Shown piece by piece: positions 1-60,865 of a stretch of 64,000 nt of DNA (the first letter of the stretch is position 1; each line of letters opens with the position of its first letter). The notes below the pieces were generated by a model, which saw only the letters and a program-made list of their open reading frames with translations, made no database searches and had not been told where the DNA came from. The stretch is from NCBI GenBank assembly GCA_020848545.1, contig JADLHZ010000025.1:1-64000 (forward strand). Reading direction: 5' to 3'. Both the position numbers and the translations under genes were made by a program. This stretch comes from Deltaproteobacteria bacterium. GTDB lineage: Bacteria > Myxococcota > JADLHZ01.

Positions 1-46
1 TCGTGGTGTCTTCGCAAACCCACGACAGACGAAGCCGAACTTGTTT

Positions 47-424
47 TCAAGGCATTTCTGCTATCCAACGTAAATATTTTGTTACACTGGAACCGATTAT
101 GAGTGACGGAGTCACGAATAATCGGGGATAGCCGAGCCCTATGCTCTCGCGGCGCTGCCGTAGGTACCACGCGTGCGCGCGGGTGAACGATCCGACGAAT
201 GCGCTCACGGCGCCCGCTTCTGTTTGTTCGACAACGAGATGCCAGTGGTTCGGCATGAAGCAATACGCATGCAACTTCACGGAGTGCCGCCGCTTGGCGT
301 GCAGCAAGAGCTGTTCGGCGACGGCATAGTCATCGTCGCCATCGAAGAGGCGGCGCTTCTCCACCCCTCTGTTGCACACGTGGTACATCTGCGCGCTCAG
401 GATCTGTCTCGGTCGTCTCGGCAT
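47..424 (-). CDS. REP-associated tyrosine transposase (RAYT, Y1_Tnp/IS200-like), probably 3'-truncated
   Basis: Y1-type HUH single-strand DNA transposase of the RAYT group, which mobilises or maintains REP elements. The family start MPRRPRQ and the beta-strand YHVCNRG (residues 14-20) are followed by the metal-binding HUH motif HWH (residues 60-62) in MPNHWHLVV. I chose the ATG at 424 because GGGGAAA lies just upstream and the family N-terminus begins there; the open frame to 544 is a non-conserved extension. After about residue 95 the sequence stops resembling the family. The usual YxxxNPV-type helix with the catalytic tyrosine is not recognisable, although a Tyr sits about 55 residues after the HUH motif. 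At 125 residues it is short, so it is probably a truncated or frameshifted copy. An array of the 17-bp element lies directly upstream of its start. Confidence 0.75.
   Translation of the reverse strand: MPRRPRQILSAQMYHVCNRGVEKRRLFDGDDDYAVAEQLLLHAKRRHSVKLHAYCFMPNHWHLVVEQTEAGAVSAFVGSFTRAHAWYLRQRRESIGLGYPRLFVTPSLIIGSSVTKYLRWIAEMP
93..125. other. Imperfect palindrome (hairpin) inside the RAYT 3' part
   Basis: Eight-bp arms CCGATTAT/ATAATCGG enclose an inner GTGAC/GTCAC stem with a GGA loop; the two stems are separated by GA opposite GA, which would give tandem G-A mismatches. Y1 transposases are known to read imperfect hairpins with mismatches or bulges at element ends, so this may be an element terminus. 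That role is inferred. It coincides with the point where RAYT similarity is lost. Confidence 0.5.
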
Positions 425-544: not shown

Positions 545-634
545 GAAAAGGGACCGGGGAAGCTTTCGGGCGAAAAGGGACCGGGGAGTACGACGAAAAG
601 GGACCGGGGAGTACGACGAAAAGGGACCGGGGAG
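545..634. repeat. Array of four 17-bp REP-like elements, upstream of the RAYT gene
   Basis: Copies of GAAAAGGGACCGGGGAG occur at 545-561 (last base A), 572-588, 595-611 and 618-634, the last three with an exact 23-bp period and GTACGAC spacers. The same 17-mer recurs at three other loci in this window. The array lies between the RAYT start (424) and the end of the next minus-strand gene (654), the classic position for REPs linked to a RAYT gene. Confidence 0.85.
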
Positions 635-653
635 GATTAGCCGCCCGGGAGGG

Positions 654-1352
654 TCAGCCGCGGGTCCAAAGGAGCCAGAAGACGACGGCGGCGATCGCGA
701 GGCAGACGGAGACGATCGCGATGGGCAACGCAGCGGTCATTCGGCCGGCGCCGCCAGCGCGGGTCTTCCCTCGGCTCGGATCGGTCTTCCCCGCGGTCTC
801 GATCTCGCGAAAGAAGTCGAGGCCGTTCACCTGCGTGCGCATCGTCTTGACGTCGGCTTTGGCGAGCGTTTCGTTCACTTCGCGCAGGAGATGCTGCGTG
901 TAGAAATCGCGCTTGCTGCACTCGCGCAAGATGCGGCTCGCGGCGTCGAGCACGAGCGCATCGGGGTCGCGCGTCGGCACGAAGAGCTCCGCCTTCGACA
1001 CGCGCGGTCCTTCTTGATCCTCGCTGAGCGCCGAGTTTGGGATCGTCCCGGTGCGGATGCCCTTGCCGATGCGGAATTCGACCATCTTGCCAAAGAAGCA
1101 CAGCTCCTGGCGATCGATCGTGCGATCCGCCATCTTCTCCCACGACAAGAGCTCGGTGCGCAGCTTCGACTGGTGCCAGACGCAGCGCAGTCCTTCTTTC
1201 TCTGTCTTGTTCGTGCCTTCGACCCGGCGCATCGCGCGGCCGATGTCGCGCAGGATCGCTTCGGCCTGATCCGCCGTCTCGCTCGGACGCGCCATCTTCG
1301 GGATGACTTGCGTCTTCGACAGCTCTGACGGACGGCTCTTCGGGTCGATCAC
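654..1352 (-). CDS. Hypothetical tail-anchored membrane protein
   Basis: I do not recognise a family in this 232-residue protein. It is a mainly hydrophilic, charged domain (residues 1-200) followed by one hydrophobic C-terminal helix (about residues 205-228, ending FWLLWTRG), the layout of a tail-anchored protein facing the cytoplasm. The start is GTG at 1350-1352, overlapping the stop of the upstream TPR gene as GTGA, so the two are probably translationally coupled. The middle holds a motif-poor segment with KMVEFRIGKGIRTG. A 17-bp element array follows the stop. Confidence 0.6.
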   Translation of the reverse strand: MIDPKSRPSELSKTQVIPKMARPSETADQAEAILRDIGRAMRRVEGTNKTEKEGLRCVWHQSKLRTELLSWEKMADRTIDRQELCFFGKMVEFRIGKGIRTGTIPNSALSEDQEGPRVSKAELFVPTRDPDALVLDAASRILRECSKRDFYTQHLLREVNETLAKADVKTMRTQVNGLDFFREIETAGKTDPSRGKTRAGGAGRMTAALPIAIVSVCLAIAAVVFWLLWTRG

Positions 1353-9230: not shown

Positions 9231-9321
9231 GAAAAGGGACCGGGGAGCGGAGCCGAAAAGGGACCGGGGAGACTCTCGCGCGGTCGCTCCCCGGTCCCTT
9301 TTCGGGGCGCTTTTCGGGGCG
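9231..9321. repeat. REP-like cluster with a perfect inverted pair (REPIN-like)
   Basis: The 17-mer GAAAAGGGACCGGGGAG occurs at 9231-9247 and 9255-9271, and its exact reverse complement at 9287-9303. The second and third copies form a perfect 17-bp inverted repeat with a 15-nt loop. A 12-bp CTTTTCGGGGCG unit then occurs twice in tandem (9298-9309, 9310-9321). The cluster fills the divergent gap between the TetR and exosortase genes. Confidence 0.85.
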
Positions 9322-23177: not shown

Positions 23178-23211
23178 ACTATCCCCGCTTTCAGGTCCGA
23201 AAAGGGAGAAC

Positions 23212-23252
23212 GAAAAGGGACCGGGGAGCGCCGGCGAAAAGGGACCGGGGAG
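23212..23252. repeat. REP-like pair (17-bp element)
   Basis: GAAAAGGGACCGGGGAG at 23212-23228 and 23236-23252 (24-bp period), with a degenerate fragment GAAAAGGGAGAA just before. It lies between bolA and the transketolase gene, in the 325-bp gap that also holds the long inverted repeat. The remainder of the gap (23253-23435) shows nothing else I can name. Confidence 0.85.
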
Positions 23253-23435
23253 CGTTTCGGCCGGGGGGCGTTTCGGCTCAGTCGTCCGTGGTCCGCCCGG
23301 CCCCGAGTCGTTCGTCACCGCGCGGACTCTTGCCGTCCGTGCGCGCGTCCGAGAACGAGCCCGGAATGGCGCCAAAGGCAGTAGCCAGATGTGCGTCCTT
23401 TATAGTAGCCGCGCGCAACCTCTGGAGGCCACCGA

Positions 23436-33536: not shown

Positions 33537-33603
33537 GAAAAGGGACCGGGGAGGGATACCGAAAAGGGACCGGGGAGGAATTCGACGAAAAGGGACCGGG
33601 GAG
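33537..33603. repeat. REP-like cluster (three copies of the 17-bp element)
   Basis: GAAAAGGGACCGGGGAG at 33561-33577 and 33587-33603, with another full copy at 33537-33553 (periods 24 and 26 bp). The cluster lies in the divergent gap between the MerR gene and the FadL-like gene and is read through by the long open frame of the latter. Confidence 0.85.
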
Positions 33604-60519: not shown

Positions 60520-60574
60520 CCCCTGACCTCTCGACCCCTGACTTCTCGACCCCTGACTTCTCAACCCCTGACCC
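60520..60574. repeat. 15-bp tandem repeat (about 3.7 copies)
   Basis: Unit CCCCTGACTTCTCGA at 60520-60534 (one change), 60535-60549, 60550-60564 (one change) and a partial to 60574. It leads straight into the C-rich 12-bp array. A palindrome CGCTCGCGAGCG occurs just before at 60491-60502 and again at 60626-60637. Confidence 0.85.
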
Positions 60575-60577
60575 AAA

Positions 60578-60611
60578 CCCTGGCCCAAACCCTGGCCCAA
60601 GCCCCTGGCCC
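60578..60611. repeat. CCCTGGCCC array (three units, 12-bp period)
   Basis: Three copies of CCCTGGCCC at 60578, 60590 and 60603 separated by AAA or similar. They are the reverse complement of the GGGCCAGGG units that follow at 60738-60856, so the two arrays can pair as a hairpin arm of interrupted complementarity. Confidence 0.85.
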
Positions 60612-60737
60612 CAAAACCTTGGCCGCGCTCGCGAGCGTGAGCTTGGCCCTGGCCCTGGACTCTCAGATCCTTCCGCACGCACCGGGGGCGGGACAGGCCA
60701 AGCTCAAGGTCAGGAGCGCGAGCGCGGCCAGGGGCTT

Positions 60738-60856
60738 GGGCCAGGGTTTGGGGCCAGGGTTTGGGCCAGGGTTTGGGCCAGGGTTTTGGGCCAGGGTTTT
60801 GGGCCAGGGTTTTGGGCCAGGGTCTTGGGCCAAGGGTTTGGGGCCAGGGTTTTGGG
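60738..60856. repeat. GGGCCAGGG minisatellite (nine units, 12-13-bp period)
   Basis: Nine units of GGGCCAGGG separated by TTT, TTTT, TTTG or TCTT, one unit with an A change (GGGCCAAGG). The plus strand fits the G-quadruplex pattern G3-N3-G3-N3-G3-N3-G3 many times over. It starts about 10 bp past the response regulator stop and, with the C-rich array, forms an inverted, AT-separated, strongly GC-skewed block not seen elsewhere in the window. Confidence 0.9.
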
Positions 60857-60865
60857 CGGGACGGA

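Follow-up and report, generated by a model that had tools for sequence, protein, structure and literature searches.

The window, that is, the whole 64,000-nucleotide stretch analysed here, comes from a member of the Myxococcota and carries RAYT transposase sequence near its start and, close to it, a cluster of 17-bp repeats, with further clusters at three other places. This locus raises the question of whether the repeat belongs to the transposase gene and, if so, how it came to be spread between genes in head-to-tail arrays. An earlier note, made from the sequence alone, had listed twelve copies of the 17-mer GAAAAGGGACCGGGGAG, and each was recovered in its place (0.15 copies are expected from dinucleotide shuffles). 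Eleven are exact, as the note had it, and the first (545-561) deviates solely at its last base. A codon-usage gene model agrees that the four clusters are intergenic. The runs are mostly direct, but the description of them as head-to-tail does not extend to the copy at 9287-9303, which is inverted relative to its two neighbours. An Rfam scan of the window returned one tRNA only, with no match at the repeats. The features are as follows:

1..127, no strand assigned: end of an insertion sequence (IS) interrupting the RAYT gene, at the contig start; it recurs elsewhere and is associated with a 5-bp duplication.
128..424, minus strand: 5' half of the RAYT gene (Y1/HUH transposase) with an HWH motif; Pfam PF01797, 39.9 bits (cut-off 23).
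Contig C46, 124-497 (L166): 3' half of the RAYT gene with a catalytic-type Tyr (YVERN), behind the other end of the IS, at a contig end.
545..634, plus strand: four core copies in an array that lies 120 bp from the start codon of the RAYT gene and forms the bracket on its 5' side.
645..660, plus strand: 3' partial copy of the last unit (CCGGGAGGGTCAGCC), from direct reading of the sequence.
9231..9303, plus strand: two direct copies and one inverted copy (9287-9303, minus strand).
23198..23276, plus strand: 5' partial copy (23198-23207), two full copies (23212-23252) and a 3' partial copy with tail (23261-23276).
33537..33603, plus strand: three full copies in an array whose flanking genes are divergently transcribed.

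The window also contains two separate tandem tracts (60520-60624 and 60726-60857), separated by about 100 bp and adjoining a response-regulator gene; their 12-13-bp units (CAAACCCTGGCC and GGCCAGGGTTTTG) are reverse complements of each other, and this two-unit pattern was found at one other site in the genome only, on C31.

The 17-mer is strongly enriched in the genome as a whole (7.99 Mb, 163 contigs), with 173 exact copies, 93 on the plus and 80 on the minus strand, and none on either strand for the reversed control. When up to two mismatches are allowed, the core CGAAAAGGGACCGGGGA has 282 copies in the host genome and a handful in each of the other 194 genomes of the phylum, a background similar to that of the reversed control. 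Exact matches to the 17-mer among 84,980 species are limited to 11 single strays in unrelated taxa, not above chance, and those to the 16-mer in viral contigs to five single strays. The suggestion of a distinct family typical of this lineage is thus supported, the core being confined to this genome among 195 phylum members; rather than being equally common in relatives that lack a RAYT, it is absent from relatives both with and without RAYT homologues. As far as sampled, the family is private to this lineage, in a comparison that reaches phylum-level relatives and none closer.

Anatomy and placement were studied in a sample of 1.21 Mb, read in pieces around known copies and elsewhere, where 66 clusters hold 150 core copies; 23 of the clusters are singletons and the others have two to seven copies. 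The conserved unit consists of the 17-bp core CGAAAAGGGACCGGGGA and a soft tail of 6-12 nt. In the 17-mer originally proposed, the last G is conserved only 72%; sequence logos instead give a core of C plus GAAAAGGGACCGGGGA, in which GAAAAGGGACCGGGGA is almost invariant and the C at position -1 is present in 93% of first copies. The tail behind it follows a soft V-S-N-T-T-T-C-G pattern. Of 71 copies that end an array, 12 have TTTCG behind the core, where shuffled tails give 0.7; this indicates a weak inverted repeat of the form CGAAA...TTTCG. The folding of single 25-nt units is no stronger than that of shuffled sequence (z -0.15 to 1.48), strong folding being confined to inverted pairs (z -3.3 and -6.3), and the consensus contains neither GTAG nor GTGG. 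The unit is non-palindromic and differs from GTAG-type REPs, as previously stated; a canonical REP is a single self-complementary hairpin of 20-40 nt that carries GT[AG]G at its foot. At two loci (L064:16073 and L096:5702) there is a unit, CGAAAACGGACCGGGAGCGTTTTC, that is related to this one yet distinct from it; it contains 7-bp inverted repeats and may represent a sister subfamily.

Of 84 pairs of neighbouring copies, 80 are direct and four inverted. Array periods range from 21 to 29 bp (mostly 23-28 bp) and show no helical phasing. Within arrays, the core mismatches its consensus at 0.39% per site; adjacent tails have a mean identity of 69% within arrays and 51% between arrays. A CRISPR-like reading was rejected: the variable parts are only about 6-12 nt long and the arrays are spread across about 100 loci. 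Partial copies occur at array ends, of the GAAAAGGG type on the left and of CCGGGGA plus tail on the right; right-hand partials like that at 645..660 were found after many arrays. Direct arrays with such partials look like the products of slippage, and slippage probably contributes to array growth. That the family consists of passive tandem repeats (MIRU/VNTR-like), produced by replication slippage and ectopic recombination without a dedicated transposase, is nonetheless very improbable: slippage could not carry a core of 17 bp to some 100 unrelated loci, and it would not hold the core constant while the tails drift. Short tandem intergenic arrays at many loci are also known from the cyanobacterial STRR/LTRR and mycobacterial MIRU repeats, and we know of no transposase partner for either.

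The placement of the clusters relative to genes bears on a second alternative. Although the DNA is 92% coding, 54 of the 66 sampled clusters are intergenic according to the codon-usage gene model (binomial p about 1e-46), so that the intergenic bias to be checked is real. The 12 'genic' clusters may be real intragenic insertions, chance matches or errors of the gene model. A strand bias, which was likewise to be looked for, is not significant: the genome-wide counts are nearly balanced (93 and 80), and core orientation is significantly associated with neither GC skew (p 0.12) nor local gene direction (p 1.0), that is, with neither replication nor transcription. Relative to flanking genes, orientation shows no preference (11 same, 15 opposite). 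Gaps between convergent genes are over-represented, accounting for 12 of 52 cluster gaps against 46 of 442 gaps (odds ratio 2.6, p 0.012). This enrichment, together with the lack of a significant orientation preference, is more in keeping with repeats that are tolerated between genes than with promoter sites; the enrichment also disfavours a promoter-operator reading. The core could also be the binding site of a host protein (a regulator or a chromosome-organising factor), which selection keeps invariant at about 100 places, with the RAYT nearby by coincidence. A core that is held constant while its tails diverge would suit such a site, and the head-to-tail clusters resemble operator arrays. 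We consider it quite unlikely, given that convergent gaps are enriched rather than depleted and orientation is indifferent, neither of which points to promoters, that the periods vary without helical phasing, that partial copies lie at array ends, and that the arrangement of copies around the RAYT gene (described below) would be left unexplained.

The RAYT gene itself is interrupted. The gene had been placed at 47-424, beside the first cluster; RAYT sequence is present there, but it is only part of a gene (128-424), joined to an IS end (1-127). Between 126 and 131 bp of this IS end recur, with 98-99% identity, at eight other places, several of which are contig ends. When the C-terminal half of a homologue was used as query, the missing part of the RAYT was found at C46:123-416; a 5-bp target duplication, GCTAT (window 128-132; ATAGC on the plus strand), is common to the window and C46. 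Joining the halves as at an empty site gives an open frame of 221 aa with both the HWH and the YVERN motif, which matches PF01797 over positions 4-121 (43.7 bits); the joined RAYT thus has a Y1_Tnp domain, the HUH motif and a single catalytic-type Tyr. Against the NCBIfam model REP_Tyr_transpos it scores 58.8 bits, below the cut-off of 80, and a second, intact RAYT of this genome (on C18) is also under that cut-off (62.6). Y1_Tnp was the only domain detected in Pfam at E <= 0.001, with no C-terminal HTH, and a search of the PDB returned no sequence-level relative at E <= 0.001. In a plasmid collection only distant relatives were found (27-34% identical among the matches listed). Elsewhere in the genome are two closely similar Y1_Tnp-like genes with an NHLH motif (L033, C7:17543; L034, C90:76824), beside which remnants resembling IS4-type transposases were seen by eye on the opposite strand; no 17-mer occurs near either gene within the 20-kb stretches read.

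The case rests most strongly on the two-sided, inverted bracketing of the RAYT. Eight bp past its stop codon on C46 lies an inverted pair of the 17-mer family, CTCCCCGGTCCgatcgctggcGAAAAGGGACCGGGGAA, which folds into a hairpin with a 10-bp stem (-12.5 kcal/mol, z -3.3). Read on the RAYT coding strand, the upstream array appears as CTCCCCGGTCCCTTTTC and the downstream copy as GAAAAGGGACCGGGGA, so that the gene is bracketed by inverted copies. Among 958 other genes in the sample, which is rich in clusters, none has copies within 150 bp on both sides; 84 of the 958 have a copy on one side only, and either RAYT flank alone could therefore be due to chance. Inverted bracketing is the rule for RAYTs (Nunvar et al. 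2010, PMC2817692). As in a REPtron, the gene is flanked by inverted copies on both sides and the repeat is abundant and extragenic (173 exact copies; 54 of 66 clusters). The pairing of 17-mer and RAYT put forward in the earlier note is accordingly supported, and extends to the 3' half of the gene, which also carries its inverted pair. Taken together, the RAYT at the start of the window is likely to have a genome-specific repeat family of its own, with the 17-mer as the conserved arm.

The second RAYT (C18:35282-35986; L031/L060) is followed directly by AAAAAAGGTCCCAGGGACCTATTTT. Its repeat family, AAAAAGGTCCCWGGGACCTTTTT (or AAAGGTCCCWGGGACC, with the palindrome GGTCCCWGGGACC), gives 51+52 hits genome-wide, perfect palindromes being counted on both strands, and is the sole other intergenic repeat family standing out in the sample. 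Copies of AAAAAGGTCCCWGGGACCTTTTT are often paired, tens of bases apart; they also frequently adjoin a sequence resembling TGTCCAA..TTGGACA. Since the window RAYT is disrupted in the assembly and the C18 gene is intact, the C18 RAYT or another enzyme might be thought to mobilise the 17-mer family, with the window RAYT merely carrying insertions, and the 5' flank of the C18 gene lies beyond a contig end. This is highly improbable: the C18 gene is followed by a palindromic family of its own, the aligned part of the two RAYTs is just 33% identical, and the literature describes one specific repeat family per RAYT (PMC6006769). The two RAYTs thus go with two separate families, as that literature describes.

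RAYT homologues were found in 19 of the 192 other phylum genomes searched (best identity 37%), several of them bracketed or flanked by AAAAGG-type repeats. In G017, GGAAAAAGGGGTCAC is present twice upstream of the homologue and in reverse form downstream; this repeat has not been amplified (2 copies), indicating that pairing with a RAYT is no guarantee of spread. In G046, copies of AAAAGGTGTCAGGCC lie on both sides. The repeat AAAAGGGGACAGGC adjoins a RAYT homologue in G103 and G172 and, among the genomes tested, is amplified in three: 52 copies in G103, 27 in G002 and 78 in G172. This family resembles that of the window in its related RAYT, its dispersed copies and its A-rich/G-rich arm (AAAAGGGGACAGG versus AAAAGGGACCGGGG). 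Neighbouring copies in G103 occur as inverted pairs only (20 inverted, 0 direct), in contrast to the window family (4 inverted, 80 direct); in G002, six are inverted and four direct. An alignment by eye, which sets AAAAGGG-ACCGGGG beside AAAAGGGGACAGG, suggests that the window family is a local form of the AAAAGG kind.

Non-GTAG repeats of RAYT-like genes have already been described, and the non-GTAG sequence alone is therefore not new: TIRYT genes encode RAYT-like Y1 transposases and have inverted repeats of a non-GTAG type on both sides (TIRtrons; Di Nocera et al. 2013, PMC3733652). In some genomes these repeats form moderately abundant families, single, dimeric or grouped, in which the motif GGGGWSAS is common (PMC3733652). 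Quentin et al. detected no REP-like sequence in subclass 2.1, mention GGGG[AT][CG]A[CG] for TIRYT repeats, and tabulate NHVH or NH[YF]H and Y-x-x-L-N-P as protein motifs of that subclass (PMC6006769). Like a TIRYT gene, the window RAYT has inverted non-GTAG flanking repeats. Their unit, GAAAAGGGACCGGGGA, matches GGGGWSAS only in part (GGGGA, then V and S). The window RAYT differs in lacking a C-terminal HTH (Bac_DnaA_C/HTH) and the exact motifs, having NHWH and YVERNA, and in a repeat family found mostly as head-to-tail arrays of a single arm; the pair works like a TIRYT pair and is not filed under subclass 2.1. With REPtrons and REPINs (PMC2817692, PMC3116915) it shares inverted bracketing, more than 100 intergenic copies and separate families per RAYT, but it has no GT[AG]G, its single unit is non-palindromic, and inverted pairs are a minority (4 of 84). 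The window family is a lineage-specific member of the RAYT/TIRYT repeat kind, and its unusual part is the head-to-tail arrangement.

A course of events can be proposed for a family belonging to the window RAYT. The enzyme would have recognised the core, or the hairpin of two inverted cores, as single-stranded DNA, cut beside the core and copied it to new intergenic sites. Arrays would then have grown by tandem duplication of one core with 6-12 nt of adjacent DNA, through slippage or through the RAYT itself. That a RAYT-type HUH enzyme with a non-palindromic arm as its substrate builds head-to-tail arrays on its own is unlikely, though conceivable; one possible route would be rolling-circle-like copying of a small single-stranded circle of one core and a few adjacent bases. 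Capture of adjacent bases by such a circle would leave the core constant and let the captured tail vary from site to site. Since both gene halves remain open and the cores have hardly mutated, the IS probably inserted not long ago, and until a short time ago the family was probably mobile or under constraint. Decayed copies are nearly absent, which together with the open gene halves suggests recent activity or selection; clean cores would be expected either of a young family or of one under constraint.

The partnership of RAYTs and repeats is best known from gammaproteobacteria, and these results extend it to an isolated lineage within the Myxococcota. Within one genome, two RAYTs go with two opposite repeat architectures, one palindromic and often paired, the other non-palindromic and head-to-tail, which makes this host well suited to studying why the repeats of a RAYT spread in inverted pairs in one case and in direct arrays in another. 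The apparently recent IS hit on the window RAYT would also provide a natural before/after test of whether such a family decays upon loss of its RAYT.
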